A DNA stretch of 64,000 nt from a virus. The stretch lies in the IMG/VR virus record IMGVR_UViG_3300037493_004064, positions 23,737-87,736 of that record. One strand, written 5' to 3'. Numbering within the stretch: the stretch's first letter is position 1; each line of letters starts with the position of its first letter. The translations under genes were made by a program, and so were the position numbers. Shown piece after piece: positions 8,850 to 64,000 of this stretch. Under the pieces are notes generated by a model, which did no database searches, was not told the DNA's origin, and saw only the letters and a program-made list of their open reading frames with translations.

Positions 8850-8978
8850 ATTACAAGAGAAAACTTCAATATAGGACCACAATCATCCGCTATTTGTCCG
8901 TATTGTGAAAAAGAAGGTGGAGTATCAAACATGAAACGATATCATTTCAATAACTGCAAGCAGAAAGTAGGAGTATAA
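8850..8978 (+). pseudogene. Start-less fragment encoding a CxxC...HxxxC zinc-finger-like motif
   Basis: This frame is open from the stop at 8835-8837 to the TAA at 8976-8978, but it has no ATG/GTG/TTG before the motif. The translated end reads CPYC, then EKEGGVSN, then MKRYHFNNCK. That is C-x2-C-x12-H-x3-C, with the Gly-Gly and M-K-R-(Y/W)-H-F-(N/D)-N-C-K features seen in zinc-finger tails of phage homing endonucleases and related accessory proteins (from memory). The TAA overlaps the gp6 ATG, and the gp6 ribosome-binding site AGGAG (8969-8973) lies in its last codons. It is most likely the 3' remnant of a mobile endonuclease gene. A 15-residue peptide from ATG 8931, or use of ATT 8850, cannot be excluded. 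Confidence 0.55.
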
Positions 8979-47524: not shown

Positions 47525-48662
47525 TGCACTTAAACGGTTTGCTGCGAAGCGTTACCCTAATCCTAATAGTGGTATAGAGTCTGATGGTTTCATAAGACCA
47601 CCCGACATCCATATACCTGAGCAGGAAGAGCCGACGGCGAAACTGGCTCCAAGTTCTCCCCCGTCACAAAAAAACGTGAGAATTGCCGTATGTTTCCATG
47701 GGCAATTGCGTAATGCGTGTCATGCCGCACCTGCCATTAAGGCTTATTTAGGTGATTTATGGGAAAATTGCGATTTTTTCATACATACTTGGAATATTAA
47801 CACGTACACCAGTCCCTGTGAATCATTTAAAGATTATATCTATGCATTAACTGGCACAGAAATAGATTTAAATCTTACTGGTCCCCCTGTCAAAAAATCG
47901 GTTACCTATGATGAGGTAGAATTTGTAAAATTTTTTTATCAACCTAAATTTTTTAAAGTTGAATCATATGAAAAATGGGCCGAAGAACATTCCTCGTCAA
48001 TAAAGAAAGCCCTGGAATTAATAATTCCAGCACATTGTCCACCCTATTATTACAGTTTTTTTTCTAGTATACAGGGTAAAAAGTCTTTTGAAAATGAAAA
48101 CGGATTTATTTATGATGCTGTTGTAAAATTACGACCTGATGTTTCTTTTTTAGTAAATAAAATGCCTATCTATAAAGATAAGAAATGTCATCTGTCTAGT
48201 AAATGCACAACTGATGTTTATACGTCTTATTTGTGTCATGACCTAATAACTTTTTATAAAGACACAACTTCTTTTTATAAAGTAGGCGAAGAATTGTGGA
48301 TTTCTACTAGTTTGTTAATGGATAGAGTTAGCAATATTTGGCAAGATTTTAAATTTGGAAATACAGAAAATCTATCCATAGCAGAATATCTTACAAAACA
48401 TCATATCCAGCAAAAAACGACCCACACAGTGAACGTTGCTTTTCATCGGGCTATCTGTCAGATTGTGCCGTCAACTGATTGGCCGTTAGTTCATTTATTG
48501 TCAGTTTTAACTGATCAAGTGGGTCTAACTAATATAGTTGTTATCATTGAGGATGATGTGAAAAATCGGTTAATCAATTATATTAAAAGTGACGACTTTT
48601 TAGATATGTTGCAACAAACATATGAGTCATACAATAGAAGAAAATTATCTTATCAATCATGA
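47514..48662 (+). CDS. Putative glycosyltransferase, GQLR/LRPDV family (copy 1)
   Basis: The 382-residue protein has a Pro-rich N-terminal extension (1-55) and then RIAVCFHGQLRNACHAAPAI, LGDLWENCDFFIHTW, and later YDAVVKLRPDVSF, which takes the place of a DXD motif. The next gene starts with the same VCFxGQLR-AIKxxxGDLWxNCDFFxHTW plan, so the two are tandem paralogues. From about 47760 the DNA becomes strikingly AT-rich (14 G/C in 48121-48180). A transferase role is inferred from family resemblance. It overlaps the epimerase gene by eleven bases. Confidence 0.6.
   Translation: MSNDALKRFAAKRYPNPNSGIESDGFIRPPDIHIPEQEEPTAKLAPSSPPSQKNVRIAVCFHGQLRNACHAAPAIKAYLGDLWENCDFFIHTWNINTYTSPCESFKDYIYALTGTEIDLNLTGPPVKKSVTYDEVEFVKFFYQPKFFKVESYEKWAEEHSSSIKKALELIIPAHCPPYYYSFFSSIQGKKSFENENGFIYDAVVKLRPDVSFLVNKMPIYKDKKCHLSSKCTTDVYTSYLCHDLITFYKDTTSFYKVGEELWISTSLLMDRVSNIWQDFKFGNTENLSIAEYLTKHHIQQKTTHTVNVAFHRAICQIVPSTDWPLVHLLSVLTDQVGLTNIVVIIEDDVKNRLINYIKSDDFLDMLQQTYESYNRRKLSYQS
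48646..48659 (+). repeat. Short direct repeat between the tandem GQLR genes
   Basis: TATCTTATCAATCA is identical to 47490-47503. It is the end of the first GQLR gene and abuts the ATG of the second (48659). Its 11-base core also occurs at 51430-51440. Confidence 0.6.
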
Positions 48663-49612
48663 GAATTGCTGTATGTTTTAGTGGACAATTAAGAACCGGT
48701 GTATGGGCAATACCCGCTATAAAATCGTTTATAGGTGATCTTTGGGGAAATTGTGATTTCTTTTTGCATACCTGGGATTCTCAAAATAATAAAAATTATA
48801 GCAACGAAGTGATAAAAAAGTTAAATAGTTTAATGTCAATTGACATTAACTATACAAATCCAAATCGTCCAATTTATGGTCCTATAGGAAACGAGGATCT
48901 TAATAGATTTTTAACCATTTATAATCCAAAATTATTTTTGATTGAAAACTACAAAACTACACACAACAATATAGTAAATTATCGTGATAGTGTTGCTGCA
49001 CAACAAAATTTATCATATAATCCTGCAGATTTTCCCCCGGAACTGTATTATTCATATTATCGTAGTGTAGAGATGGTAAAACAATATGAACAACAATGGG
49101 GGTTTACTTATGATATTATAATTAAATTACGACCTGATGTTATTTTTCCCATGCATGATGGGCATCCAATATACCGTCATAAACGGGCTGATTTAAAAAA
49201 TGACATTGAAAAAGTATTAAATAATACAAATACTTTGTATAAATCTGACGATGTGTATTGGATATCAACCGGCGACATAATTAAAAAGGTAAATTTATTT
49301 TGGGAAGAAAGTTTAAAAACACCCAAAATAACATTGTGGAATTATGCTTCTACCCTGGGTATTGATATAGAATCATCAGAGAATAATAAGTATACCTTGT
49401 TGAGAAATTTGTGGAAACGGTTGCTAATTGACGATTTTTTTATGATAAACGCCCTCGAACGGTTGTTTGTGGATTTGCCAATTGAAACTGAGGCTGTTTT
49501 AAGCCCTCGTGTAGATTTTTATATACAGCATTCTAACGAATTAAAATCGTACATACGCAACTATAGTATTATCAAGGAGTTATGCGATGAAACAAATTGC
49601 ACAATCAACTAA
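48659..49612 (+). CDS. Putative glycosyltransferase, GQLR/LRPDV family (copy 2)
   Basis: The 317-residue paralogue of the preceding gene, without its N-terminal extension, starts RIAVCFSGQLRTGVWAIPAI, then GDLWGNCDFFLHTW and YDIIIKLRPDVIF. Later parts (ELYYSYYRSVEMVKQYEQQWG) match the spacing of copy 1 (YYYSFFSSIQGKKSFENENG). The whole gene is AT-rich. It starts immediately at a repeat shared with the end of the epimerase gene. Substrate unknown. Confidence 0.6.
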   Translation: MRIAVCFSGQLRTGVWAIPAIKSFIGDLWGNCDFFLHTWDSQNNKNYSNEVIKKLNSLMSIDINYTNPNRPIYGPIGNEDLNRFLTIYNPKLFLIENYKTTHNNIVNYRDSVAAQQNLSYNPADFPPELYYSYYRSVEMVKQYEQQWGFTYDIIIKLRPDVIFPMHDGHPIYRHKRADLKNDIEKVLNNTNTLYKSDDVYWISTGDIIKKVNLFWEESLKTPKITLWNYASTLGIDIESSENNKYTLLRNLWKRLLIDDFFMINALERLFVDLPIETEAVLSPRVDFYIQHSNELKSYIRNYSIIKELCDETNCTIN

Positions 49613-50981
49613 CAAATTAGTGATATTTGATTTAGATGGAGTACTTATTGAAAGTAGAGAACTTCATTACCATAGTCTTAATGATTCATTACGCAGTATT
49701 GATGCAAAATATGTTATTGATAGGGACGAGCACTTGTCAATATATGATGGATTAAATACAACCCGTAAATTAGAATTGTTATCTGAAACAAAAGGATTAC
49801 CCACCGAGTTTCACGATATAGTATGGCAACGTAAACAATTGGCAACTTTTAATCTTATTAAACAGTTTACAGTTGATACTAAGTTAGTTGATATATTTCT
49901 AAAACTTAAATCTTCCGGATATATGATTGCCGTTGCAAGTAACAGTATTAGAGAAACGGTTAAACTTAGTTTATTAAAAATTGGAGTAATGGAATATGTG
50001 GATTATTATGTAAGTAATCAAGATGTACAACGCCCCAAACCGTATCCAGAAATGTATTGGAAATGCATGTCTGCCCTAAGGGCATTACCACACGATACAT
50101 TAATTATTGAAGATAGTCATATCGGAAGGCGTGGCGCATTAGATAGTGGCGCTGTATTATTAGCAGTTGAAGATTCGCATGATATTACTTGGGATAAAAT
50201 TAATACACGATTACAACAAATGAACTCACAGATGACAACAAACAACATACCTTGGAAAGACAGCAGACTTAACGTATTAGTACCCATGGCAGGTGCAGGC
50301 AGTAGATTTGCACAGCAAGGATACACTTTCCCTAAACCGTTAATCGAAGTAAACGGTAAGCCTATGATCCAGGTCGTTGTGGAAAACTTAAACATCGAAG
50401 CACATTACATCTTCATCGTACAACAAGAACACTACGAAAAATACAATCTAAAATATTTGCTCAATCTAATTGCTCCGGGCTGTGACATCGTTCAAGTCAG
50501 CGGCGTCACTGAAGGCGCCGCTTGTTCTACGTTGCTTGCTAAAGATTACATCAACAATGATTCTCCGTTAGTTATGGCTAACAGTGATCAGTATGTTGAA
50601 TGGAATAGCAATGAGTGTATGTATGCGTTCACTGCTGATAGCATAGACGGTGCCATTCTAACGTTCGAATCAAGCCACCCTAAATGGAGTTATGCAAAGA
50701 TCGGCAACAACGGATTTGTAAGTGAAGTAGCAGAAAAGAAAGTTATCAGCAATGAAGCCACTGTGGGTGTTTACTACTGGAAGAAAGGTAGTGACTACGT
50801 TAAGTATGCTGAAGAAATGATTGCTAAGAATATTCGTGTTAATAATGAATTTTATGTATGTCCAGTGTTTAACCAAGCAATTGCGGACGGCAAGAAAATA
50901 AAAGTTAAGCGCGTCAATAATATGTGGGGGATAGGCACACCCGAAGATTTAAATCAATTCTTATTGAATTACAAACTATGA
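49587..50981 (+). CDS. Fusion: HAD phosphatase plus sugar nucleotidyltransferase
   Basis: The 464-residue protein. Residues 1-215 are a HAD-superfamily domain: F-D-L-D-G-V at 14-19 (nucleophile D15, D17), VASNS, RPKPYPEMY (Lys of motif III) and IIEDSHIG (motif IV), as in beta-phosphoglucomutase-type enzymes. From about 228, NVLVPMAGAGSRFAQQGYTF followed by PKPLIEVNGKPM is the nucleotidyltransferase signature, ending GIGTPEDL. It probably processes a sugar phosphate and then activates it with a nucleotide. The HAD part is AT-rich and the other part is not, with a change near 50230. It overlaps the upstream gene by 26 bases. Confidence 0.8.
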   Translation: MKQIAQSTNKLVIFDLDGVLIESRELHYHSLNDSLRSIDAKYVIDRDEHLSIYDGLNTTRKLELLSETKGLPTEFHDIVWQRKQLATFNLIKQFTVDTKLVDIFLKLKSSGYMIAVASNSIRETVKLSLLKIGVMEYVDYYVSNQDVQRPKPYPEMYWKCMSALRALPHDTLIIEDSHIGRRGALDSGAVLLAVEDSHDITWDKINTRLQQMNSQMTTNNIPWKDSRLNVLVPMAGAGSRFAQQGYTFPKPLIEVNGKPMIQVVVENLNIEAHYIFIVQQEHYEKYNLKYLLNLIAPGCDIVQVSGVTEGAACSTLLAKDYINNDSPLVMANSDQYVEWNSNECMYAFTADSIDGAILTFESSHPKWSYAKIGNNGFVSEVAEKKVISNEATVGVYYWKKGSDYVKYAEEMIAKNIRVNNEFYVCPVFNQAIADGKKIKVKRVNNMWGIGTPEDLNQFLLNYKL

Positions 50982-51463
50982 AATTAATTGCACACCGAGG
51001 ACTAGTTAATGGCCCTGATAGTAATTTAGAAAATCTACCTGGGCAAATATTGTTAAGTTTACAAGCAGGATATGATTGTGAAATTGATGTTAGGTATATT
51101 AATGGCAAATGGATGCTAGGACACGACGATCCAGATTTTGAAGTACCGTTTGAATTTCTCAAACAACCTGGATTGTGGATACATGCTAAAAATTTAGAAG
51201 CACTTTATGTACTGGGTGCTGAAAAAAGTTTAAATTATTTTTGGCATCAAGAAGATGATTTCACATTAACTAGTCATGGATATATTTGGACATATCCGGG
51301 AAAAGAATTAACTCATAATAGCATCATGGTATTACCCGAATTGAATGATCCTAAGTTTGAAAACTTACCAATAAATTGTTATGGTGTGTGTACTGCCTAT
51401 ATAGAAGATGGTATAAACAGACAATATTGTCTTATCAATCCAACCGCGCAGGGGGTCAAATGA
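50978..51463 (+). CDS. GDPD-like phosphodiesterase
   Basis: The 161-residue protein has KLIAHRGLVNGPD, EN, then CEIDVRYINGKWMLGHDDPD. These are the His-Arg, Glu-x-Asp and His features of glycerophosphodiester phosphodiesterases, shorter than the usual 240-280. It could act on glycerol-phosphate substituents. Its last codons (51407-51440) copy the end of the epimerase gene at 47468 in a different reading frame, so the tail after about residue 143 is recombinant. Start ATG 50978 overlaps the previous stop. Confidence 0.68.
   Translation: MKLIAHRGLVNGPDSNLENLPGQILLSLQAGYDCEIDVRYINGKWMLGHDDPDFEVPFEFLKQPGLWIHAKNLEALYVLGAEKSLNYFWHQEDDFTLTSHGYIWTYPGKELTHNSIMVLPELNDPKFENLPINCYGVCTAYIEDGINRQYCLINPTAQGVK
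51407..51440 (+). repeat. Direct repeat, right copy (inside GDPD-like gene)
   Basis: GATGGTATAAA and CAGACAATA are contiguous here, then three bases, then TCTTATCAATC, against 47468-47502 where one G separates the first two blocks. Apart from that gap, 32 of 34 bases match. Both copies are followed by GTCAAATGA a short way downstream, near the next gene start. Confidence 0.75.
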
Positions 51464-52566
51464 AGATCGGCATAAAATATAAAACTGATTTGGAAGAGAT
51501 TGCTGTTCTAGTGTGGTCATTGAGAGATTCAGCAATCAAAGCCGATCTTCGTGCCGATGGAATCTTTGAAGAAAGGTATAACGGTAAGGTATTTGAACTC
51601 ACTCTCGGTGAAAACTGCTTTCGGTTCTCAACGGTTGATGAGGCTTTATTGGAATGTGATAAAAAGGTTAGAGTTTCTCACCATTCTTTTGACGATGTTG
51701 ATCCTCGGTATGATAAAGAAATTTGTATACTGCATGACGCAATACGGGACGAATTTACTGAGGATCTTATAAGGGAATTTTTAGATAAAGGTAACATTCT
51801 CATATCGGTGTCAACCGCGAATTTCTCACATGAGAACTTGATTTATGATCCTTTACTTGGTCTAGTGACTATTTACTTAGACTTGGGTCTACACTTCCTT
51901 AATTATTATCAAGCACCTAAGAATTTTAAGAGACTATTGGGTGTCTACCACAAACCACTTCATATAGGTGGTGCACCAAACAACCGGCGTAATGAACTTT
52001 ACGATAAGGTGAGGGCTCAGTTGGGCGACGACTTCGGCGCATATAAATCATGTGATTCATCTTTCTTTGACCTGATAAATTCGTATAGATATTTTGGGCG
52101 ATGGGGGAATAATCATATTACTGGTTATACTGATTACGTCACTAGTGTATGCAATATAGTTTTTGAGACATACGATTCTGTGGGCTCAAACGTTTTTCAG
52201 GGCAGAACACTTTTAACGGAAAAAACAACAAAGGCGATAATTTTCTGCGAGGAGAATATCTTCTTTATTTGGTATGGTCGGGAAGATTTTTATAAAGTGT
52301 TGCGAGAGTATGGGTTTTGGTTTCTTAACTCGGAATTTTATGATGCGACTACGGAAATACAGGACCAAACTGCAATGTGTCAGTCAGTATTTAATGCCAC
52401 GACTTACCTACAAAAACTCAAGCACTCACTTGGCACAAACGAGAGAGTATACTCCCATTTAATGGAGAAGTATGGTCACCATCTGAAAGAGAATGTGAGA
52501 TTATTCAAGCACTTGGAACAAAATTGTCCAGTGAAGGATACACTCATAAATACAATTTTAAAATAA
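51460..52566 (+). CDS. Putative glycosyltransferase with EKT module
   Basis: The 368-residue protein has an unfamiliar N-terminus. Its second half has LLTEKTTKAIIFCEENIFFI followed by GREDFYKVLREYGFWFL and NSEFYD, a diverged version of the EKT-GF-F module in the genes at 40422 and 45109. Start ATG 51460 has GGGGG at 51451-51455; the upstream in-frame ATG at 51376 is rejected because it lies in the GDPD-like gene. Transferase activity is inferred. Confidence 0.5.
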   Translation: MKIGIKYKTDLEEIAVLVWSLRDSAIKADLRADGIFEERYNGKVFELTLGENCFRFSTVDEALLECDKKVRVSHHSFDDVDPRYDKEICILHDAIRDEFTEDLIREFLDKGNILISVSTANFSHENLIYDPLLGLVTIYLDLGLHFLNYYQAPKNFKRLLGVYHKPLHIGGAPNNRRNELYDKVRAQLGDDFGAYKSCDSSFFDLINSYRYFGRWGNNHITGYTDYVTSVCNIVFETYDSVGSNVFQGRTLLTEKTTKAIIFCEENIFFIWYGREDFYKVLREYGFWFLNSEFYDATTEIQDQTAMCQSVFNATTYLQKLKHSLGTNERVYSHLMEKYGHHLKENVRLFKHLEQNCPVKDTLINTILK

Positions 52567-52574
52567 AGGTCAGT

Positions 52575-53567
52575 ATGAAAAAAACAGATAGAATCTTAGT
52601 TACCGGAGCCAGTGGCTTCATCGGCTCGCACGTTTTGCGTACTCTTTTTGAAAAGGGCTACAAGAATCTTCGCTCCACTACTTACAGTAGAACTCTCCGT
52701 AAGGACTTTTATGGATGGGAAACAGTGGAGAATCATCATGGTGATCTTCGTACTGCTGAGTTTTGTGAGAAAATTACGCGAGAAGTGGATGTGGTGATTC
52801 ATTGCGCCGCCAATACATCAAACGCTCTGGATACCAAGTTCAATCCTCTGCTGCATGTGACACCTAACGTTGAGATGAACACTAATCTTATGGAACAGAG
52901 TTGGAAGAACAAGGTGACAAAATTTATGTTCATCTCGTCCAATACCGTTTACCCGGATATGGGCTTGGATTATTGTCGTGAAGAGGCGGATGTGCAGGGC
53001 ACCCCGTTAATTCCGGTGTATAAGGCAGTTGGTGGAATGAAACGATACACCGAAAGTTTATGCGATTTCTTCTCAAATCAGATTCATGAACCGATGCAGT
53101 GTATTATGATTCGCCCAAGCAATGCTTTTGGTCCTAATGATAAGTTTGACTATGAAAAATGTCATGTGACTCCGGCGAGTATTCGCAAGGTTGCCGACGG
53201 GCTGAACCCCATCCCTGTCTGGGGTGATGGTTCAGATGTCCGTGATCTACTTTATGTAGAAGACATGGCCGATGGTATTGTGTTTCTGACTGAGAATGTT
53301 GACACCTACGACAAGTTCAATGTCTGCTATGGGCAAGGCTTCACTGTGAACGAGGTGCTTGCCATGCTCAAAGAAATCGACCACAATGACAACCCTATTG
53401 AGTATGTAAACAACAAGGCATTTATGATTTCAGTTCGCCTGCTGAGTTCTGAGAAAATCAATCAACTCGGCTGGAAACCAAAGTATCAGTTAAGGGAAGC
53501 ATTAGAGAAGGCCATGAATTGGTATAAGGCGAACAAGGGTCAATACAATCCCGAATCAAAGCCCTAA
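52575..53567 (+). CDS. NAD-dependent sugar-nucleotide epimerase/dehydratase (SDR)
   Basis: The 330-residue protein has RILVTGASGFIGSHVLRTLF (Rossmann), VIHCAANTSNAL, FMFISSNTVYPDMGLDY, MIRPSNAFGPNDKF and VRDLLYVEDMADG. Catalytic-region residues read VYKAVGGMKRYTES; Tyr is seven residues before Lys, not the canonical four, which appears to be a trait of a phage/marine SDR subgroup (from memory). ATG 52575 follows the preceding stop by eight bases. It most likely makes a deoxy or epimerised GDP/UDP sugar. Confidence 0.8.
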   Translation: MKKTDRILVTGASGFIGSHVLRTLFEKGYKNLRSTTYSRTLRKDFYGWETVENHHGDLRTAEFCEKITREVDVVIHCAANTSNALDTKFNPLLHVTPNVEMNTNLMEQSWKNKVTKFMFISSNTVYPDMGLDYCREEADVQGTPLIPVYKAVGGMKRYTESLCDFFSNQIHEPMQCIMIRPSNAFGPNDKFDYEKCHVTPASIRKVADGLNPIPVWGDGSDVRDLLYVEDMADGIVFLTENVDTYDKFNVCYGQGFTVNEVLAMLKEIDHNDNPIEYVNNKAFMISVRLLSSEKINQLGWKPKYQLREALEKAMNWYKANKGQYNPESKP

Positions 53568-54607
53568 TGGAAAAATTTGTCGTGGTAAACCCCTTTGCTG
53601 CGGGGTTTACCAATGTGCAGATGAGTTATGAAATTGCTTTTGCAGTGGCGCATATCACTGGTAGATCCATCGTTCTACCACCAACTTCCTGGTGTGTACT
53701 CATTGACGAGAAGGACTCTCCCAAAGAGACATGGCAGGATATTTGGCAAATCTGCGACAGGGAAAAAGCCAACCAGGAATTCAAGATTTATGACTTATTA
53801 GAGTTTGAAGAACTGGCTCCTTACATTGACAAAAACTCACCCGGTTATTCCTGGTTCTCCGACGACGTTTTGCCTAATTCAAGAACTATTCCGTCGTTCG
53901 CTGACTCGCCCATATGCTTGCACTCCGAACCCACTGACATGCAAGATTTCCTAAAGTTCGTCGGAGACAGGCCGCTCTGTAATATGGAATGCACTGAGAA
54001 GTTTCTGTTGGTCTCAGGGTTTGGAAACTACTGGGCAAACGTTTATGCCAATGGAATCTCAGACCGAAACGAAATGAAGAAGCGCGTTAACGCCGCGTTT
54101 CAGTACCAATCTAAATTTTACGAACTTGCCAGTTCAATGATTACTGGTACCTACAACGCCATTCACGTTAGAAATCCGAAACAACTTATGTTTGACCAGT
54201 ATGCAGATGTGGTGAGTTTTGTCGACAGACCGGATTTACTTTTGCAGCAGGTGAAAAAGTTTTATCCAACGCAAACGCCATTGTACGTGGCAACTGACAT
54301 TCCGCACCGGGGACTCTTTGAAAAGTTAGCATCTGAATATCAACTGATTTTCTACGACGATCTATTTCAGACACCATTTCACCCGCTGGAGAAAATAGCA
54401 ATTGACCAGATTATTTGCAGCCGGGCCGAACTGTTTTATGGAAGTTATTACAGCACCTTCAGCAAGAGAATAAATATCATGCGAGGCTTAGAAGGAAGAC
54501 AGTCAAACGACAATATGGGATTTAATAAAATAATGGATCAATCACCGAACCCGGAGTCATGGCTCTGGTATGCCGACGCATCCCCTCAATGGACCATTGG
54601 AATATGA
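53567..54607 (+). CDS. O-fucosyltransferase-like glycosyltransferase
   Basis: The 346-residue protein starts VVVNPFAAGFTNVQMSYEIA (a fold opening shared with the GDP-fucose protein O-fucosyltransferase group), has YNAIHVRNPKQL as a degenerate H-x-R, PLYVATDIPHRG, and IDQIICSRAELFYGSYYSTF followed by SKRIN, which is the typical C-terminal nucleotide-binding block. It suggests transfer from a GDP-sugar, possibly GDP-fucose made by the neighbouring SDR. The start overlaps the SDR stop (TAATG). Confidence 0.68.
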   Translation: MEKFVVVNPFAAGFTNVQMSYEIAFAVAHITGRSIVLPPTSWCVLIDEKDSPKETWQDIWQICDREKANQEFKIYDLLEFEELAPYIDKNSPGYSWFSDDVLPNSRTIPSFADSPICLHSEPTDMQDFLKFVGDRPLCNMECTEKFLLVSGFGNYWANVYANGISDRNEMKKRVNAAFQYQSKFYELASSMITGTYNAIHVRNPKQLMFDQYADVVSFVDRPDLLLQQVKKFYPTQTPLYVATDIPHRGLFEKLASEYQLIFYDDLFQTPFHPLEKIAIDQIICSRAELFYGSYYSTFSKRINIMRGLEGRQSNDNMGFNKIMDQSPNPESWLWYADASPQWTIGI

Positions 54608-55434
54608 AACCTAAACAACCTACTCAACAACGGAAGGGAATCGCGTTCGGCGGGTGTTCTTTTACATGGGGTCAGGGCCTGCATTATTACAGTAACCTAT
54701 CCACATTAATCTTACCAGAAAATGAGAATATGTATGATGAGGAGTTAGTAAGTTATGCCCATTTTAAGTTCATTGAGACCGTCAGGTATCCAAGATTAGT
54801 AGCACAACACTTTAACACATTTGAATTGGTGCAACCATTTAATGGGGGAGCAACGAGAACTACTGTTGATTTTTGGACCGCTGCCATCAACTCAGAAAAG
54901 AACAGCTTTTCAAAGATAAATTGGAATGTCCCATCATGTGACATCTCAACCTTTGTTTGCCAACTTACTCAATGGAGCAGAATGCAGGTAACAATTGAGG
55001 TTGGTGGTGAAGTTATCGGTCCTGTACAGGTAATGGACTTGGTCAGTGACCGCCGGTTTTCAGAGTGGTTAACTGTCAGCGGGACTACATTTGATGAGGT
55101 CCTTAGTAAGTTTCGTGCCGCCGACCTTAGTTCAATAAAAACTTTCTTGGAAGAACAAGAGAATAAAGGAATTCGTGTAGTAATCGTTTCGTGGCCTGAT
55201 GATTTAGTTAACTTGATTAAATCAGATGACTGGTTAAGCAGACGATTTGTTAATCTTAAATATAAAGGGGCTACTGTTGGTAGCATAGAAGCATTACTAG
55301 ATCTCCACAACCTAAAAATCTCTGCCGATTTTGAATTTTTTAGTGAACCTCCTAAGGACCATCACCCTTCATTAGAATGCCATAAAATAATAGCAGAAAA
55401 TATAATAAGTTTTTTAGAAAGTAGTTATGAATAA
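54604..55434 (+). CDS. SGNH-hydrolase-like protein, GCSFTWGQG subgroup (copy 1)
   Basis: The 276-residue protein has GIAFGGCSFTWGQGLHYYSN (Ser at 19) and DHHPSLECHKIIAEN near the end (252-266). The Gly-Asn block III reads GGATRT, so the Asn typical of block III is not present. It is the first of three close paralogues (with 56774 and 57600). It uses ATG 54604 (ATGA overlap); an earlier ATG at 54559 lies in the O-fucosyltransferase gene. Likely acts on acyl groups of the glycan. Confidence 0.66.
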   Translation: MKPKQPTQQRKGIAFGGCSFTWGQGLHYYSNLSTLILPENENMYDEELVSYAHFKFIETVRYPRLVAQHFNTFELVQPFNGGATRTTVDFWTAAINSEKNSFSKINWNVPSCDISTFVCQLTQWSRMQVTIEVGGEVIGPVQVMDLVSDRRFSEWLTVSGTTFDEVLSKFRAADLSSIKTFLEEQENKGIRVVIVSWPDDLVNLIKSDDWLSRRFVNLKYKGATVGSIEALLDLHNLKISADFEFFSEPPKDHHPSLECHKIIAENIISFLESSYE

Positions 55435-56365
55435 AGTTCTTATCACCGGCGGAGCCGGATACCTAGGCTCTACTATGGCAGAGCACCTGCTATCTGAGGG
55501 ATATGCCGTGACGGTGCTTGATAACCTGTTATACAAGCAACTCTCTGTTCTACATCTGTTCAAGAAGGAAAACTTCAGATTTGTAAACGGTGATGTCAGA
55601 AACACTGAGTTGTTAACCAAGTTAGTCAACGACCATGATGTAATTATCCCACTGGCAGCAATAGTTGGGATGCCGGCATGCAAGGCGAACCCGCAGTTAA
55701 CAATTGATGTAAACTTTAAGCACATTGAAACTATCGTTAGCCTGCTGAGACCTGACCAGAAGGTAATTCTGCCAAATACCAACAGTCAGTATGGTTCATC
55801 TGATACCATTATCACAGAAGAAAGCCCATTTAAGCCGCTGTCTCTGTATGCCCAAACAAAATGTGATGCCGAAGACCAAGTATTGAAGAATGGCAAGGGC
55901 GTTGTACTGCGACTGGCCACAGTATTCGGTGTTTCGCCTCGTATGCGTCAGGATCTATTAGTCAATGACTTTGTATACCGGTCACTCGTTGATGGATTTT
56001 TGGTTTTGTTTGAGGGCCACTTCAAACGTAACTACATTCATGTACAAGACATTGCCCGCACTTTCCAGTTCATCATAGAACATTACGATCAGTGCCGGGG
56101 ACAGGCATATAACGCCGGACTGTCAACAGCAAACATAAGCAAACTTGAGTTGGCACAGAAAATCAAGGAATATATTCCAGGACTTGTCATCGTCCAGGAT
56201 GAGTTTAAGGAAGATTTTGACAAGAGGAATTACATCGTGTCAAACGAGAAATTGGAAAAGATAGGATGGCGCCCAATTTATGACCTGGATTACGGCATCA
56301 CGCAGTTAATCGAGGCATATCCATTAGTCATAACCCACAACCACAGGAACTTTACAAATTTATGA
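55427..56365 (+). CDS. NAD-dependent sugar-nucleotide epimerase/dehydratase (SDR)
   Basis: The 312-residue protein has KVLITGGAGYLGSTMAEHLL (Rossmann), PLAAIVGMPAC, ILPNTNSQYGSS and a canonical Y-A-Q-T-K (LSLYAQTKCDAED), RLATVFGVSPRMR, and RNYIHVQDIARTF. It is the only one of the three SDRs in the window with the standard YxxxK. It could be a UDP/GDP-hexose 4-epimerase or dehydratase. It overlaps the upstream gene by eight bases. Confidence 0.83.
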   Translation: MNKVLITGGAGYLGSTMAEHLLSEGYAVTVLDNLLYKQLSVLHLFKKENFRFVNGDVRNTELLTKLVNDHDVIIPLAAIVGMPACKANPQLTIDVNFKHIETIVSLLRPDQKVILPNTNSQYGSSDTIITEESPFKPLSLYAQTKCDAEDQVLKNGKGVVLRLATVFGVSPRMRQDLLVNDFVYRSLVDGFLVLFEGHFKRNYIHVQDIARTFQFIIEHYDQCRGQAYNAGLSTANISKLELAQKIKEYIPGLVIVQDEFKEDFDKRNYIVSNEKLEKIGWRPIYDLDYGITQLIEAYPLVITHNHRNFTNL

Positions 56366-56790
56366 AACAACGTAGATATATTCAAACCCTCTCAGAATTA
56401 ATTGACCGTCTTAGCATTGTTCAATTAAAAGAGGTATTCATCACTGAATTTAAGGATGAATATGCCAAAGAAATTAATGACATTGTGCATGACATTCAGT
56501 TAATCCTAGAGGAATCAAACGGGAAGTTGACCGCAGAAACTATTCGTGCCATCGTAGTAGTTAGTCAAATTAATCTTCACATTTGGCACAACGAGTCCAA
56601 CTATCGCAAGGGTATCAAGGATGGTAACAATCTTGAGCTAACCCATGGGTTAAATGGCATTCGCAACACTGCCAAGAATATTATTCAAGAGGCAGTTGGT
56701 GGCCGAAAGGATTACAAGGTAGATTGTTTAGCTGCCGATTTCTCCTCATGGGAAATTAGTTGGGGTGGAAAAGATGAAGATAAGGAATGA
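56362..56790 (+). CDS. Small helical conserved protein, function unknown
   Basis: The 142-residue, mainly helical protein reads TLSELIDRLSIVQLKEVFIT, INDIVHDIQLILEE, LHIWHNESNYRKG and GLNGIRNTAKNIIQEAVGG. I recognise the LSELIDRLSIVQLK and NGIRNxAKN pattern from proteins adjacent to sugar gene clusters but not a function. It may be a regulator or partner of the neighbouring SGNH proteins. It overlaps both neighbours. Confidence 0.55.
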   Translation: MKQRRYIQTLSELIDRLSIVQLKEVFITEFKDEYAKEINDIVHDIQLILEESNGKLTAETIRAIVVVSQINLHIWHNESNYRKGIKDGNNLELTHGLNGIRNTAKNIIQEAVGGRKDYKVDCLAADFSSWEISWGGKDEDKE

Positions 56791-57616
56791 CATCCAGATT
56801 AGGGGAATAGCCTTTGCTGGATGCTCATTCACTTGGGGTCAAGGACTCTACTACTACAGTAATCTGCCAACTCTTAGTGAGCCTGGCAAGTTTAAGTTCC
56901 AGCCTGAACTATTAACTGCCCCGCAAATAAAGTACATGGAATCGGTGCGCTGGCCAAGGCTAGTTGCCACACATTTTAATTCATTTGAGTTGACCCAGCC
57001 GTTCAACGGTGGAGCAGTTTATACTATTCTTGGTTGGTGGAATACCTGCTTTAAAAATTTTCTGGATGGAGGTTCTCCGAAAAACCCCGAAGTTAGGTGT
57101 GATTATTCTGAGATTTCTCATTTGGTGTTTCAAATGACTCAGTGGCACAGAAGCCAAAAAGTTGTTCAGTTCAACAGCGGCGAACTTCAATGTTCTCATT
57201 TCGAACTATGGACTACCTACAAGGATGAGTTCTTTGTCTGGTTAGATAAGAATGGAATAACGTTAGATGAGTACGTTGATCAGGCCAAGAAAAGAGATGT
57301 GCGAGAAGTATCTACCTGGTTACAGAGTTTAGAACAGCGTGGCATTAAAATCTCAATATTGACTTGGCCCGCCGACCTGGTCCAGTATATTCTGGATGAT
57401 CCATGGTTAGCAGACCGATTTATTAGTTTTGACTACAATGGGTCGTCGTTCGATAGCATAGAAGGAATGATAGAACAAAATAAACACCTGGAAATAATCA
57501 ATGATTATGAATTTTTTGAAGTACCACCAATAGATCATCACCCATCGTTGGCATGCCAGCCGGTGATCGCCGCTGCTGTAATAAAACATATTGAAAAAAA
57601 TGAAATCAAAAAGTAA
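56774..57616 (+). CDS. SGNH-hydrolase-like protein, GCSFTWGQG subgroup (copy 2)
   Basis: The 280-residue paralogue of 54604 has GIAFAGCSFTWGQGLYYYSN (Ser at 18), PFNGGAVYT, and DHHPSLACQPVIAAA. The central sequence YSEISHLVFQMTQWHR aligns with CDISTFVCQLTQWSR. I prefer ATG 56774 with a GGTGGA site; GTG 56765 would add three residues. The gene starts inside the previous one. Same likely role, possibly with a different acyl or sugar specificity. Confidence 0.66.
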   Translation: MKIRNDIQIRGIAFAGCSFTWGQGLYYYSNLPTLSEPGKFKFQPELLTAPQIKYMESVRWPRLVATHFNSFELTQPFNGGAVYTILGWWNTCFKNFLDGGSPKNPEVRCDYSEISHLVFQMTQWHRSQKVVQFNSGELQCSHFELWTTYKDEFFVWLDKNGITLDEYVDQAKKRDVREVSTWLQSLEQRGIKISILTWPADLVQYILDDPWLADRFISFDYNGSSFDSIEGMIEQNKHLEIINDYEFFEVPPIDHHPSLACQPVIAAAVIKHIEKNEIKK

Positions 57617-58469
57617 CTGTTGTGTATCCAAGGCCATGGTGTTTGCCGGTTGTTCCTTTACATGGGGTCAGGGGCTGCACTATTATAGCAACCTACCAAA
57701 CATTCAGGAGCCACTACCGTGGCACTACGATTCTAACCTTGTATCTTTTGTTAACTACGAGTTTATAAAATCAGTTAGGTTTCCGAGAATAGTTGCAAAT
57801 CATTTTGGTTCGGTTGAGTTAACCCAACCGTTTAACGGAGGAAGCAACGCATCGATAATGGCCTGGTGGAACTCCTGCTTTGATAATATTGACTCGTATC
57901 AACAAAATGAACTAAGCATAAATTCATCAACTGGTTTGCCTCGGTACAAGTTTGATGAGGTATCACATCTGATCTTTCAGTTAACACAGTGGGACCGGGA
58001 CTTTACTACTATAGAGGTGGATGGTAAGGTATACGGGCCAATATCTTATGCTAATCTCATGTACGACCATCGGGAAGTCTTTCTCCGTTATTTAGAAAAA
58101 AATAACATGACTTTAGACGAGTACGTAGATAATGCAAATCAAAAAAATATGCAGGCTGTGAAAACCTTTTTACAGAAATTTGAAGACCATGGGGTCAAGA
58201 CCTATGTAATATGCTGGCCATTGGAAAGTGTAAAGTATGTCATGGAAGATCATTGGTTGAGCAAAAGATTAATTACACTGCACTTTAAGGAGTTAGAGTT
58301 TCCATCTATTGCCCACCTTATGGGAGCATCGGATCAATACCCAGTGCCTTTCCCGGAGATGAGCATTATGCGGGACGCCAGCAGTTTTGAGGTTACGCCA
58401 TCTGATATGCACCCATCACTTTCTTGCCACAAAGTGATAGCCGAAAGTGTTATTAAGCGGTTACAATGA
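57600..58469 (+). CDS. SGNH-hydrolase-like protein, GCSFTWGQG subgroup (copy 3)
   Basis: The 289-residue paralogue has VFAGCSFTWGQGLHYYSNLP (Ser at 19), PFNGGSNASI (a complete Gly-Ser-Asn block III, unlike copies 1 and 2) and DMHPSLSCHKVIAES. The N-terminus is Lys/Ser/Cys-rich (KSKSNCC). ATG 57600 starts inside the previous gene; TTG 57591 is an alternative. Confidence 0.66.
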   Translation: MKSKSNCCVSKAMVFAGCSFTWGQGLHYYSNLPNIQEPLPWHYDSNLVSFVNYEFIKSVRFPRIVANHFGSVELTQPFNGGSNASIMAWWNSCFDNIDSYQQNELSINSSTGLPRYKFDEVSHLIFQLTQWDRDFTTIEVDGKVYGPISYANLMYDHREVFLRYLEKNNMTLDEYVDNANQKNMQAVKTFLQKFEDHGVKTYVICWPLESVKYVMEDHWLSKRLITLHFKELEFPSIAHLMGASDQYPVPFPEMSIMRDASSFEVTPSDMHPSLSCHKVIAESVIKRLQ

Positions 58470-59383
58470 AAAAAGTATCAATTTCCGATATTGAATCATT
58501 GGTGAATTTTGAAATCAGTGAGGAATGCAAAAAAGCAATCATTGACTATAATTTAGTTTATGAAGATTTATCTTTGCCTGAGCGTGATTCAGTCATATTA
58601 AGCATAATTAATTATCTTCACGGAGAGGTAGAATTCTCAGGACCACATCGGTTAAAACAGTGGGAAAGGGGATGGGAACACTCTCTTGCCTCCTTCAACA
58701 ATAAGAACGACATTGAACAATTAAAACCTGATTACTTCGGTAAATCAAGTATAGTTAGATGGGGCGGAGAATTTGTTCGCGCCAGAACCGAAGGTTTTGA
58801 TTTTAAACTTCTTACTATCTTCGTAGATTCGTATCTTCATAAGTTCGTCGGTTCTTCCTATGATAATCTGATTGAGTTTGGATGCGGCTCATCTTACCAT
58901 TTAGTTCGCTTCGGCGAAAGAAACAGAAATATAAATCTAATCGGCCTTGATTGGGCAAAGGCGTCCCAAGATATTATTAGTAAGATACAACTTACTGGGT
59001 TAAATAACAGATTAACAGGACATAATTTTGATTTTTACTCCCCTTCGTCGGACTTCAATATTCCAGCAGAGAGTGCCATATTTACGTGTGACGCCCTTGA
59101 GCAAGTAGGAGCAAACTTTAAACCATTTATTGATTTTCTACTGGTGCATAAACCCAAACTTTGTATTAATTTTGAACCAATTACTGAACTACTGAATAAA
59201 GATATTTTGGTTGATAAACTGTCATTGATGCATACTGAAAAGAGAAAATACTTAACTGGATATCTGACTTACCTAGAGCAATTGGAACACGAAAATAAAA
59301 TTGAAATTTTAATAAAACGGCGGTTATATTGTGGATCACTTTACTTGGAGCCACATTCTGTTGTAATTTGGAAAATAAAATGA
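58466..59383 (+). CDS. SAM-dependent methyltransferase-like protein
   Basis: The 305-residue protein has a helical N-terminal domain (1-115) followed by a Rossmann-type SAM fold: DNLIEFGCGSSYHLVRFGER (motif I) and NLIGLDWAKASQDI (ribose-binding acid), then AIFTCDALEQVGANF. It would methylate a sugar, lipid or peptide. ATGA overlap with the SGNH gene upstream and the E1-beta-like gene downstream. Confidence 0.65.
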   Translation: MKKVSISDIESLVNFEISEECKKAIIDYNLVYEDLSLPERDSVILSIINYLHGEVEFSGPHRLKQWERGWEHSLASFNNKNDIEQLKPDYFGKSSIVRWGGEFVRARTEGFDFKLLTIFVDSYLHKFVGSSYDNLIEFGCGSSYHLVRFGERNRNINLIGLDWAKASQDIISKIQLTGLNNRLTGHNFDFYSPSSDFNIPAESAIFTCDALEQVGANFKPFIDFLLVHKPKLCINFEPITELLNKDILVDKLSLMHTEKRKYLTGYLTYLEQLEHENKIEILIKRRLYCGSLYLEPHSVVIWKIK

Positions 59384-59904
59384 GTACATATAAAGATTCA
59401 CTAATTGGAGCCATGACGTTTCTTGGCAGCAAAGATGATACTATTTTCGTTGGTCAACAGATCATCTTCGCCGGTAACCCGATGAGCACCACCTTAGAAA
59501 ATGTTTCCAAGGATAAGATGATAGAACTACCTGTTATGGAAGAAACTCAAATGGGGATGAGCCTAGGGCTGGCAATTGCGGGCAACACGGTAATTACATT
59601 TTATCCACGTTGGGATTTTATACTCTCTGCGACTAATCAATTAGTAAATCATGTAAACACTTTCAGCCTGATGACCGGAAAGAAAGTTAACATGATTATC
59701 AGATTAGGTAAGGGCTCCGATAAGCCACTTGATCCTGGACACCAGCATAAAGGAAACTATCTTTCGGAATTTAAAACCCTTTGCCCAAATATAAAATTTC
59801 ATGATTTGACCAATGGTGCAATGATCGTGGATAGTTACGTCAACGCCTACACGGATGGTGGAGTCCATGTCATGGTTGAATACCCGGAATTGTACTCATC
59901 ATAA
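59380..59904 (+). CDS. TPP-dependent enzyme, E1-beta-like (Pyr) subunit
   Basis: The 174-residue protein has IFVGQQIIFAGNP, then PVMEETQMGMSLGLAIAGNT, whose Glu fits the catalytic E1-beta glutamate that activates thiamine, and ITFYPRWDFILSATNQLVNH, a typical E1-beta transition. It lacks the C-terminal transketolase-like domain of ordinary E1-beta (about 320-340 residues). ATG 59380 overlaps the methyltransferase stop. Its probable partner is the E1-alpha-like gene at 44498, 14 kb upstream. Confidence 0.7.
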   Translation: MSTYKDSLIGAMTFLGSKDDTIFVGQQIIFAGNPMSTTLENVSKDKMIELPVMEETQMGMSLGLAIAGNTVITFYPRWDFILSATNQLVNHVNTFSLMTGKKVNMIIRLGKGSDKPLDPGHQHKGNYLSEFKTLCPNIKFHDLTNGAMIVDSYVNAYTDGGVHVMVEYPELYSS

Positions 59905-59913
59905 GGAGAGAGC

Positions 59914-60012
59914 ATGTTTATTACAAAGTTTATTAAAAAAATGATACGAGAATACAAGTATCGTAAGCGCCTAAAGGAGATGCGAAAGCGCGACCCCTTT
60001 ATTTACAAATGA
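59914..60012 (+). CDS. Very small basic peptide (32 aa) before the carbamoyltransferase
   Basis: ATG 59914 has a perfect-looking AAGGAG ribosome-binding site (59903-59908) and ends TGA overlapping the next start (ATGA), so it is very likely translated. The peptide is strongly basic (FIKKMIREYKYRKRLKEMRK) and ends RDPFIYK. I believe a similar peptide precedes carbamoyltransferase genes in cyanophages (from memory, not checked). The role is unknown; it could bind RNA or the membrane, or serve only to couple translation. Confidence 0.6.
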   Translation: MFITKFIKKMIREYKYRKRLKEMRKRDPFIYK

Positions 60013-61493
60013 ACTACATCGGCATCTCCTCAGGGTTCCATGACGCAGCAGTGAGCGTTATCGACCAATCCGGCAATATTCTCTTTGCCGGACACTCCGA
60101 ACGCTACTCAAAGCAGAAGCACGACAAGGAGTTAACTCAGTTGGCCGTGTGTAACGCCCTGGACTACATCACTGATGACTATGAAGTTCATTACTATGAG
60201 AAGCCTTGGTTAAAGTTCCTGCGACAGATACGAGCAGGCGAACCGCTAGATATGCGTACTCTATCCGCACGAAACATGATCGGGCGACTAAATTGGGTAA
60301 CTCTTGATAAACAGCCGATTCACACCCACAGTCATCACCTAAGTCATGCCGCAGCGGGGTTTCAGACAAGCCCGTTCACTGAGGCAACAGTGGTGATCAT
60401 TGACGCCATTGGTGAGTTTGAAACTATCACTATCTGGGATGCATCGTATGATGATCGTGGTCAGGCTCGTTACGAGAAACTCTGGAGCAAGACTTACCCA
60501 GATAGCATTGGTCTATTCTACTCAGCAATGACTAAGCGAGTAGGACTGCGCCCTCTGGACGAGGAATACATTCTGATGGGTATGGCAGCATACGGCACCC
60601 CGGTACATTACGCTGAATTACATGATGAACTTATGGAAGACAGCAGTGATTTATCGTTTGTTCATAATCTTCATACAGGTGTACCTGATTATTTCCTCCA
60701 AGGTGCCAATGACATGGACATTGCTGCATCAAGTCAATTGCTTGTGGAACATCTTATACAGAACGTGATGACCAGAGCCAAAATACTTGGCAGATCAGAC
60801 AATCTGGTATATGGCGGCGGCGTTGCACTGAACTGTCTGGCCAATAGAAACCTACATCAGAAATTCAAAAACATCTGGATCATGCCGAACCCAGGTGATG
60901 CAGGGTCAAGTCTCGGCGCCGCCGCGTTGGGACATGGTGGTAAAATCAACTGGCAGAACGCCTATCTTGGTTTTAACATTGACCGACCGTATCCTGTGAA
61001 CGCCCTACTTAGAGAACTGCTACACGGGAACATCGTTGGTGTAGCCAGCGGCCGGGCAGAGTTCGGTCCAAGAGCACTGGGCAACAGATCATTACTGGCA
61101 GACCCTAGAGGACCCTTGATCAAGGACAAAGTAAATGAAATCAAACGTAGACAGCAGTTCAGACCTTTCGCGCCAGTTATACTGGAGGAATTTGCTGATC
61201 AGTTTTTTGATATGTCTTGCGGCAGCAGTGATAACAGGTACATGCAGTTCATCGCTACTTGTCGGCGTCCTGACTTATTTCCTGCTATCGTTCATCACGA
61301 CGGAACTAGTCGTGTACAGACTGTACCCAAAGATGGCAGCGGAATCAGAGAACTACTTGAAAAATGGTACCTGATGACTGAATGCCCGATGTTGCTGAAC
61401 ACCTCGCTGAACATCCGCGGCGAACCAATGGTCAACACCGTCTCGGATGCTGAACGATTCTCAAAACTTTATGGGGTGCATGTATTCTCTTAA
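60009..61493 (+). CDS. NodU/CmcH-family carbamoyltransferase
   Basis: The 494-residue protein starts NYIGISSGFHDAAVSVIDQS with HSERYSKQKHD (the GxHDAA, SERxxxxKHD signature), then HSHHLSHAAAGFQ (metal-binding His), VYGGGVALNCLANRNL, MPNPGDAGSSLGAAALGHGG, and the C-terminal RAEFGPRALGNRSLLADPRG and FRPFAPVILEEF. These are complete hallmarks of the family. It transfers a carbamoyl group from carbamoyl phosphate to a sugar hydroxyl. It is the last gene of the gapless glycan block. Confidence 0.88.
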   Translation: MNYIGISSGFHDAAVSVIDQSGNILFAGHSERYSKQKHDKELTQLAVCNALDYITDDYEVHYYEKPWLKFLRQIRAGEPLDMRTLSARNMIGRLNWVTLDKQPIHTHSHHLSHAAAGFQTSPFTEATVVIIDAIGEFETITIWDASYDDRGQARYEKLWSKTYPDSIGLFYSAMTKRVGLRPLDEEYILMGMAAYGTPVHYAELHDELMEDSSDLSFVHNLHTGVPDYFLQGANDMDIAASSQLLVEHLIQNVMTRAKILGRSDNLVYGGGVALNCLANRNLHQKFKNIWIMPNPGDAGSSLGAAALGHGGKINWQNAYLGFNIDRPYPVNALLRELLHGNIVGVASGRAEFGPRALGNRSLLADPRGPLIKDKVNEIKRRQQFRPFAPVILEEFADQFFDMSCGSSDNRYMQFIATCRRPDLFPAIVHHDGTSRVQTVPKDGSGIRELLEKWYLMTECPMLLNTSLNIRGEPMVNTVSDAERFSKLYGVHVFS

Positions 61494-61500
61494 ATAGAGG

Positions 61501-64000
61501 ATGCGAGATGTATTCTATTTCAACAAAAAACCAAACGTTCACCCCCGAGAAAAACCAGCTAAGGATTTAACAGATGCTCGGCAACAGGCTGGCACGGAGC
61601 ATTTCTGGATAATTAACGAACTATGTGATTATTCCGGATTTGACTGGGAATGGGACTTTGAGTTTTTACCGGACGAAGAAGTATGGGCCCAAGAACATAA
61701 CAATGTATGGCCGAGTCAACATCAAAAGGATAGTGGTACTTGGTTATGCCCAAAAGAACTAAGTGAAGTTATTATCTATAGGGCAGACGTTCAGCCTATC
61801 ATCAGAAAAAACCATGAGAATGACAATTGGATTCTGACTGACACAATTGACAAGTTTGCGTTTGATTTTAGTTGGCACCCTGATCCAACTGACCCGCCAT
61901 TCATATACGTATGGGGTAACGCATGGTTTCCCGCTGAACTTGGCTCAGTCATTGAGTATCACGTACCAGGTGCCACAGAACGAAAGTACATGACTGAGGT
62001 TGTTAAACTACTTCCAGGAGAAAACTGGATAGAGCAGATACTCATTGACAAATCATTCTTTGATCTTAGTTGGCGTCCTGATCCACGCGAACCGCCGTTT
62101 ATCTATGTGTGGGGTAATAAATGGATATCCGCCGAAGCATTCACCACGTTAGAATATCATTGCCCCGGGGCAACAGAGCGTAAGTACGTAGAATGGAATA
62201 TACCGCTTCTACATCAGATGGATAAGTGGAGAATCACCCAGCCGATTGACAGAACGAAATTCGACCTCACGTGGAGACCCGATCCGAGAGAACCGCCGTT
62301 TATCTATGTATGGGGAAACAAATGGGTATCCGCTGAGTTACAACCGACTCTGGAGTACCACGTACCTGGTGCCATAGAACGCAAGTACATGGACGAACTG
62401 GTAGAAGTGCTACCTGATGGCAACTGGAATGAGGTCCAGCCGATTGACCAGTCATCTTTTGATTTGTCATGGAGACCCGATCCGAGAGAACCGCCGTTTA
62501 TCTATGTATGGGGAAATGTATTTGTCCCTGGTGAAAGAGAAGCAACACTTGAACATCGCGTGCCAGGTGCCACGGAGCGCAAGTACATGGGGATAGTTGA
62601 TCTGGCACCTGAATGGGACCGATGGAAAGAACTTCAACCTGTTGATAAAAAATCATTTGATTTCAGATGGCGACCGGATCCTAATCTTGAGGAACCACCA
62701 TATATTTACGTGTGGGGTAATAAATGGATATCCGCTGAACTACAACCGACACTAGAGTATCACGTACCAGGTGCCACTGAACGCAAGTACATGGAAGAAC
62801 TACCTGTTGTACTAATGGAGTCAGATCGGTGGGTGGAGAGACAGCCGATCGTCCGGTCATTTGATTTAAGTTGGAGACCTGATCCGAGAGAACCACCGTT
62901 TATCTATGTATGGGGAAACAAATGGGTATCCGCTGAACTACAACCGACGCTAGAATATCATACACCCGGCGCCACTGAACGCAAGTACATGGAAGAGATA
63001 GTGGAAGTAGTACAGGATGCCAACTGGAATGAATCTCAGCCGATTGACCAGTCATCTTTTGATCTGTCATGGAGACCTGATCCACGTGAGCCACCATTCA
63101 TCTACGTATGGGGAAACGTATTTGTTCCTGGTGAAAGAGAAGCAACACTAGAATACACGGTGCCAGGTGCCACGGAGCGCAAGTACATGGGGATAGTTGA
63201 TCTGGCACCTGAATGGGACCGATGGAAAGAACTTCAACCTGTTGATAAAAAATCATTTGATTTCAGATGGCGCCCCGATCCTAATCTGGAAGAGCCACCT
63301 TACGTTTATGTATGGGGTAACAAGTGGATACCTGCTGAACTACAACCGACACTAGAGTATCACGTACCAGGTGCTACAGAGCGCAAGTACATGGAAGAAC
63401 TACCTGTTGTACTAATGGAGTCAGATCGGTGGGTGGAGAGACAGCCGATTGACAAGTCATCATTTGACCTCTCATGGAGACCCGATCCGAGAGAACCGCC
63501 GTACATCTATGTATGGGGAAACAAATGGGTATCCGCTGAACTACAACCGACACTAGAGTATCACGTACCAGGTGCCACTGAACGCAAGTACATGGACGAA
63601 CTGGTAGAAGTGCTACCTGATGGCAACTGGAATGAGGTCCAGCCGATCGTCCGGTCATTTGATTTAAGTTGGAGACCTGATCCGAGAGAACCACCGTTTA
63701 TCTATGTATGGGGAAACAAATGGGTATCCGCTGAACTACAACCGACACTAGAGTATCACGTACCAGGTGCCACTGAACGCAAGTACATGGAAGAGATAGT
63801 GGAAGTAGTACAGGATGCCAACTGGAATGAATCTCAGCCGATTGACCAGTCATCTTTTGATCTGTCATGGAGACCTGATCCGAGAGAACCGCCGTACATC
63901 TACGTATGGGGAAATGTATTTGTCCCTGGTGAAAGAGAAGCAACACTAGAATACACGGTGCCAGGTGCCTCTGAACGCAAGTACATGGGGATAGTTGATC
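61501..64000 (+). CDS. Tandem-repeat protein, partial (runs off right edge)
   Basis: The frame is open from ATG 61501 to the window end (833 complete codons, no stop). A stop (61495-61497) precedes the ATG in the same frame and no other early start exists; AGAGG directly abuts the ATG, an unusual spacing. Residues 1-120 form a distinct N-terminal domain: DARQQAGTEHFWIINELCDY, EVWAQEHNNVWPSQHQKDSG. From residue 121, eleven ~66-residue repeats follow with core F-D-L-S-W-R-P-D-P, then PPFIYVWGNKW, LEYHVPGATERKYM. I recall similar repeat proteins beside carbamoyltransferase genes in marine phages; their function is not established. Confidence 0.75.
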   Translation, partial: MRDVFYFNKKPNVHPREKPAKDLTDARQQAGTEHFWIINELCDYSGFDWEWDFEFLPDEEVWAQEHNNVWPSQHQKDSGTWLCPKELSEVIIYRADVQPIIRKNHENDNWILTDTIDKFAFDFSWHPDPTDPPFIYVWGNAWFPAELGSVIEYHVPGATERKYMTEVVKLLPGENWIEQILIDKSFFDLSWRPDPREPPFIYVWGNKWISAEAFTTLEYHCPGATERKYVEWNIPLLHQMDKWRITQPIDRTKFDLTWRPDPREPPFIYVWGNKWVSAELQPTLEYHVPGAIERKYMDELVEVLPDGNWNEVQPIDQSSFDLSWRPDPREPPFIYVWGNVFVPGEREATLEHRVPGATERKYMGIVDLAPEWDRWKELQPVDKKSFDFRWRPDPNLEEPPYIYVWGNKWISAELQPTLEYHVPGATERKYMEELPVVLMESDRWVERQPIVRSFDLSWRPDPREPPFIYVWGNKWVSAELQPTLEYHTPGATERKYMEEIVEVVQDANWNESQPIDQSSFDLSWRPDPREPPFIYVWGNVFVPGEREATLEYTVPGATERKYMGIVDLAPEWDRWKELQPVDKKSFDFRWRPDPNLEEPPYVYVWGNKWIPAELQPTLEYHVPGATERKYMEELPVVLMESDRWVERQPIDKSSFDLSWRPDPREPPYIYVWGNKWVSAELQPTLEYHVPGATERKYMDELVEVLPDGNWNEVQPIVRSFDLSWRPDPREPPFIYVWGNKWVSAELQPTLEYHVPGATERKYMEEIVEVVQDANWNESQPIDQSSFDLSWRPDPREPPYIYVWGNVFVPGEREATLEYTVPGASERKYMGIVD
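61861..64000 (+). repeat. In-frame tandem repeats with a ~600-bp higher-order period
   Basis: Unit starts (TTT or TTC of the FD-x-x-W motif) are 61861, 62059, 62260, 62458, 62656, 62860, 63058, 63256, 63463, 63658 and 63856, spaced 195-207 bases. Three unit types alternate: NKWVSAELQPT, VFVPGEREAT and a PNLEEPP type. Stretches such as 62578-62660 and 63178-63260 look essentially identical 600 bases apart, so a trimer of units has been duplicated recently. Confidence 0.85.

Follow-up and report, generated by a model that had tools for sequence, protein, structure and literature searches.

A phage repeat gene cut by its contig end probably encodes part of a giant glycosyltransferase-like protein that closes a conserved glycan island

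The DXD motif is the general metal-binding motif of glycosyltransferases with the GT-A fold, although exceptions are known. Metal-independent GT-A enzymes without DXD include BoGT6a (GT6, NXN) and C2GnT-L (GT14), and in enzymes of this type basic residues replace the metal (PMC3961637). GT-A domains may also stand in tandem in one chain, as in K4CP, the polymerase of Escherichia coli K4 (2z86). Among viruses, the A111/114R protein of the chlorovirus PBCV-1 carries three glycosyltransferase domains in a single protein and belongs to a system in which virion glycans are made without host machinery (PMC7826918), and moraphages, a group of large aquatic phages, have four core glycosyltransferase groups (PMC12619734). 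A search of the literature found no description of the protein family treated here.

In this study, a stretch of 64,000 nucleotides of phage DNA, referred to as the window (G000:C1:23737-87736, from the IMG/VR virus record IMGVR_UViG_3300037493_004064), was analyzed computationally together with its relatives. A repeat gene runs to the end of the window, which is also the end of the 87,736-base virus contig; the gene is thus cut by the contig end. What it encodes is probably a giant glycosyltransferase-like protein of GT-A type, of which the N-terminus and the middle are present here; the gene closes a conserved glycan island in a clade of large tailed phages. Like A111/114R, the family appears to combine several glycosyltransferase domains in one viral protein, with three GT-A-like stretches in the model of one relative; this is a likeness in working, kinship is not claimed, and A111/114R differs in having no half-domain array, in coming from a eukaryotic virus and in its measured hydrolytic activity (PMC7826918). 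K4CP shares the tandem GT-A domains, but its polymerase function is known, it has no unit array and it matches the phage family by single domains only. BoGT6a and C2GnT-L resemble the phage proteins in having a GT-A fold without DXD, and here too only a likeness is claimed (PMC3961637), and by analogy with them a lysine of the phage proteins would lie at the active-site position. Two UniProt proteins of uncultured Caudovirales phages present in BFVD, A0A6J5L5L5 and A0A6J5LK21, match the model of the relative L034 in fold over the full length (32% identity, E below 1e-83); both are without function or description and look like members of the same family.

The repeat gene comprises the following parts, with the units placed by a unit HMM and the highest pairwise DNA identities between units given in brackets.

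61501..63999, plus strand: repeat gene, 833 codons, ATG at 61501, stop-free to the contig end, related open reading frames known
61501..61860, plus strand: N-terminal region, residues 1-120, of which residues 1 to about 104 are a predicted small GT-A-like domain
61861..62058, plus strand: unit 1
62059..62259, plus strand: unit 2
62260..62457, plus strand: unit 3 (92% to unit 9)
62458..62655, plus strand: unit 4 (91% to unit 7, 90% to unit 11)
62656..62859, plus strand: unit 5 (90% to unit 8)
62860..63057, plus strand: unit 6 (96% to unit 10)
63058..63255, plus strand: unit 7 (91% to unit 4, 92% to unit 11)
63256..63462, plus strand: unit 8 (90% to unit 5)
63463..63657, plus strand: unit 9
63658..63855, plus strand: unit 10
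63856..63999, plus strand: unit 11, cut by the contig end

The first-pass annotation, made from the letters of the window, had counted eleven in-frame units before the edge. The array is real, and the count is more precisely ten complete units and an eleventh that is cut, each of 65-69 amino acids, over residues 121-833. The complete units score 94-104 bits each, and TRF reports 8.6 copies with a 198-bp period. Across 270 units, of which nearly all belong to relatives, the consensus reads FDfsWrPDP.ePpyIYvwGnk....e..pt.eYhvpgATe.KYm, after which comes a conserved Trp; the array as a whole is rich in conserved Trp, Tyr and Phe. The protein begins MRDVFYFNKKPNVHPREK, a start that, judged by eye, is neither signal-peptide-like nor hydrophobic. 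The C-terminal part lies outside the window, and we infer its presence in the window gene from the relatives.

The fold of that C-terminal part was approached through L034, a compact relative of 949 amino acids modelled from 26 aligned sequences (pLDDT 83.8). The best solved match of this model in Foldseek is the chondroitin polymerase K4CP (2z86; E 1.8e-6), and another of its matches is 2p72, a glycosyltransferase structure from PBCV-1; whole-chain TM-scores to solved structures are low (0.11-0.19), because only single domains match. Taken separately with VIA-align, residues 361-486 match Helicobacter pylori IspDF (Z 10.1, 120 residues, 3.2 Å), residues 489-627 match TarI/IspD (Z 9.4, 133-134 residues) and residues 721-862 match B4GALNT1, ThuS and SpsA (Z up to 11.5, 139 residues, 2.8 Å), all of these being GT-A proteins or GT-A-like nucleotidyltransferase proteins. 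Full-length relatives are therefore predicted from the model to end in about 700 residues that form three GT-A domains. The first-pass annotation had suggested that the array might be secreted or exposed on the surface, or might itself be acted on by the glycan enzymes. Neither the N-terminus, as judged by eye, nor these three predicted domains lend support to that suggestion, and since full-length relatives end in this way the protein seems rather to belong to the glycan machinery itself.

The portion encoded in the window was modelled as the N-terminal region with three units (pLDDT 92.6), and this model gave no Foldseek match in the PDB below E 0.001. Residues 1-104 superpose weakly on GT-A proteins, the best match (Z 6.5, 97 residues, 2.7 Å) being of a kind that may mean only a common arrangement. 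In profile-profile comparison against the C-terminal core, the unit profile gives three matches, with scores of 65, 38 and 32, and the N-terminal profile also gives three, with scores of 50, 44 and 41, compared with maxima of 20 (unit) and 22 (N-terminal) in 30 column shuffles and of 11 and 20 against the reversed core. The motif shared in these matches, W-I-x-N/S-x-x-x-D-Y-x-x-F-D-F-x-W-x-P...I-x-V-F-G, belongs to the GT-A segment that follows the central strand of the fold, and in the models of L034 and of the window protein the strands of the units run in an order that agrees with the profile matches. From these alignments, which are short (18 to about 50 columns), the units may be read as amplified second halves of a GT-A domain. 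A relationship between the N-terminal domain and the C-terminal GT-A domains of the relatives is supported by the same comparison. The earlier suggestion that this domain is a separate functional unit thus stands in so far as the domain is distinct and conserved among relatives, but not in so far as it was set apart from the rest of the protein.

The DXD motif bears on the catalytic standing of these domains, and here a second gene of the same block becomes relevant. A search of the rest of the 87.7-kb contig for the C-terminal part of the repeat gene yielded only one homologue, a stand-alone protein that matches the last GT-A domain found in the repeat proteins (HMM E 7e-15; hhalign probability 98.3, 28% identity). 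Its place among the genes of the block is as follows.

8978..12352, plus strand: baseplate wedge gp6-like protein, first gene of the conserved order
12360..29792, plus strand: giant open reading frame of 5,810 amino acids, directly after gp6
34998..35951, plus strand: stand-alone protein of 317 amino acids, homologous to the repeat proteins' last GT-A domain, with DXD (DGD)
35945..37534, plus strand: twitch-domain radical SAM protein (NF033640, 300 bits)
37527..38960, plus strand: twitch-domain radical SAM protein, adjacent second copy (NF033640, 289 bits)
42725..59904, plus strand: variable glycan island
60009..61493, plus strand: NodU/Nol-type carbamoyltransferase (Pfam Carbam_trans_N and _C, PHROG 1601)

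Relatives of the stand-alone homologue are encoded in 433 IMG/VR stretches, and it accompanies the repeat protein in 23 of 28 records, at 72-82% or 56-57% identity. All 80 stand-alone relatives keep DXD as DGD or DKD, whereas all 73 repeat proteins have [FNP][AGC]K, with Lys in place of the second Asp. At the corresponding place the other GT-A-like domains of the repeat proteins also lack the motif, with INE in the N-terminal domain, NSE or SSE in the first of the C-terminal domains and SS[IVL] in the second. The missing DXD lowers the claim of ordinary metal-dependent catalysis and leaves the fold assignment intact. As no GT-A-like domain keeps DXD at the aligned place, the repeat protein may be non-catalytic. 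If so, all of its GT-A-like domains would form a scaffold that binds glycans or nucleotide sugars and gathers the true enzymes of the island, namely the stand-alone DXD glycosyltransferase, the carbamoyltransferase and the radical SAM enzymes. This account draws on the uniform replacement in the repeat proteins and on the retention of the DXD homologue nearby in 22 of 22 ordered relatives. However, the last domain has many invariant polar residues (K785, Q797, D799, R800, K805, H806, H822, D842, R870, R874 and E875 in L034 numbering), more than a binding scaffold would be expected to need, and the loss of DXD does not prove inactivity because metal-independent GT-A enzymes exist (PMC3961637). 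We consider a purely binding role doubtful, with perhaps one chance in a few of being correct, and prefer the reading of the protein as a glycosyltransferase-like member of the island.

The gene order is consistent with the preferred reading. In all 22 relatives that hold the three genes, gp6, the stand-alone DXD homologue and the repeat gene follow one another on one strand, with the variable island between the last two; the distance from gp6 to the glycosyltransferase is 17.0-25.3 kb and that from the glycosyltransferase to the repeat gene is 4.7-26.6 kb. The gp6-like protein is nearest, at 33% identity, to those of phages of 340-470 kb such as Pectobacterium phage CBB. A homologous giant open reading frame of 4,009-6,656 amino acids follows gp6 in 21 of 21 relatives tested, and the first 3,547 amino acids of the giant open reading frame in the window have no Pfam match. 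When 12 islands were compared (three of the 12 stretches omit the glycosyltransferase end), half of the 46 clusters of open reading frames were seen in a single island only, and the twitch radical SAM family was present in every one, with 42 open reading frames or about 3.5 per island.

In the window, the island carries methyltransferases, an rmlC-like epimerase, three SDR epimerase/dehydratases, an O-fucosyltransferase-like protein, a HAD plus nucleotidyltransferase fusion, pieces of a TPP enzyme and unassigned open reading frames. The segments 44459-45124 and 59329-59904, about 14 kb apart, resemble two halves of a thiamine-diphosphate enzyme (E1_dh and Transket_pyr). Three open reading frames without a Pfam match (54559-55434, 56765-57616 and 57591-58469) all match the same open reading frame of L006 (1024-1911) and therefore look like paralogues of one family. 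The proteins encoded at 40422-42725 and 45109-46545 are related to each other, having shared matches in the same relatives and a common C-terminal motif around LGFKTF.PFIDERYD, and belong to no Pfam or NCBIfam family.

The carbamoyltransferase, which the first-pass annotation had correctly placed upstream, is a separate protein whose stop lies 7 bases before the ATG of the repeat gene. Of the 72 related loci with more than 1.8 kb of upstream sequence, 34 have it immediately upstream of the repeat gene, and it occurs in 19 of 28 records and in 8 of 12 islands; some large relatives (e.g. G020, G022 and G023) are without it.

The beginning of the gene block at a baseplate gp6 and a giant open reading frame, the aromatic-rich units and a length as variable as that of adhesins might instead suggest an array on the virion surface or in a tail fibre, in which GT-A folds are reused to bind host glycans. 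This is improbable given that the C-terminus of the relatives consists of three predicted GT-A domains and that the repeat gene closes an island of glycan enzymes; moreover, no structural PHROG match to the repeat protein was found.

The history of the array was examined at the DNA level. The first-pass annotation had described three-unit blocks recurring at 600 bases with near-identical DNA. At this lag a block does recur, with units 4-5 and 7-8 identical at 90.2% over 399 bp, but it spans two units, as the third comparison (unit 6 with unit 9) gives only 83%; a second block appears at a lag of 798, where units 6-7 and 10-11 are 94.5% identical. The closest unit pairs have dS of 0.13-0.50 and dN of 0.013-0.034 (dN/dS about 0.06-0.1), which indicates that most units were not copied very recently and that purifying selection acts on them. 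A recent near-identical duplication, as had been claimed, was rejected on the dS of 0.33-0.50 between most of the close copies. The exact tracts between units, the longest of which is 113 bp, form a mosaic pattern; the lag-600 tract exceeds the codon-permuted expectation with P 1.5e-4, and the other two comparisons give P 0.017 and 0.028. This pattern suggests patchy recombination between units.

The relatives bear out the prediction that the array changes length through gain or loss of units. Searching IMG/VR with the window protein gave 36 loci, and their contigs measure up to 267 kb. Complete relatives have 841 to 2,313 amino acids and 2 to 23 units, at least 27 units occur in open reading frames truncated at the border of the stretch analyzed, and one record has an open reading frame of 2,713 amino acids. 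When the last 600 amino acids were used to judge relatedness, one pair at 92% identity had 6 and 10 units, and two further pairs had 9 and 10 (95.5%) and 7 and 8 (94.7%). Unit by unit, near relatives are broadly colinear with units missing, although cells of this comparison with short overlap are unreliable. A repeat number fixed in all relatives, together with an unrelated function of the N-terminal domain, had been named beforehand as the outcome that would count against such an array; the number found varies from relative to relative. The contigs of L028, L029 and L031 likewise end inside the unit array, and as assemblies break there the true copy numbers may be higher. Such contig ends would also be expected if the array or its copy number were produced by short-read collapse or a chimera in an otherwise ordinary gene, an explanation that is extremely improbable in view of complete arrays of diverged units in dozens of independent contigs, a longest exact tract of 113 bp and a unit dN far below dS.

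An alignment of the C-terminal part found a relative encoded in 544 IMG/VR stretches, and the C-terminal parts of close relatives are under purifying selection (dN/dS about 0.06-0.1). The same alignment found no relative in GTDB, where a single genome per species was scanned for 84,980 species of bacteria and archaea. Searches by tblastn of the 50,697 phage records of INPHARED were likewise empty, whether the query was the repeat part, the C-terminal part or a full-length relative. No match was obtained in a sequence search of the PDB with the repeat protein. In Pfam, PHROG and NCBIfam no named family was recognized above its curated cut-off or on a single stretch of the repeat protein; the matches that were returned (best E 7.5e-7) were dismissed as artefacts of summing over repeats.

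If the repeat protein is an enzyme of the island, its last GT-A domain would transfer a sugar without a DXD-bound metal, by means of the invariant Lys, and the stand-alone DXD enzyme would make a different linkage. The half-domain array would hold the growing glycan or an acceptor protein, with its length setting reach or avidity. The target would be either the host surface or a virion protein, for which the product of the giant tail-proximal open reading frame in this gene block is a possible candidate. A bolder possibility, which we put forward only tentatively, is that half of a GT-A domain was loosed and amplified to between 2 and about 30 copies between the terminal GT-A domains, and that the array serves as a protein ruler whose length, altered by in-frame gain and loss of units, tunes the glycan of the virion or the host surface.

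The repeat protein belongs to an undescribed family found on hundreds of phage contigs and recognized by none of the domain libraries searched. It points to a putative glycan-modification island of large phages in which a fixed core, consisting of the DXD glycosyltransferase, the twitch radical SAM enzymes, often the carbamoyltransferase and the repeat protein, surrounds sugar genes that change from phage to phage. Should the units prove to be halves of a GT-A domain, the family would represent an unusual fragmentation and amplification of an enzyme fold, and the natural length series of the array makes the role of length testable.
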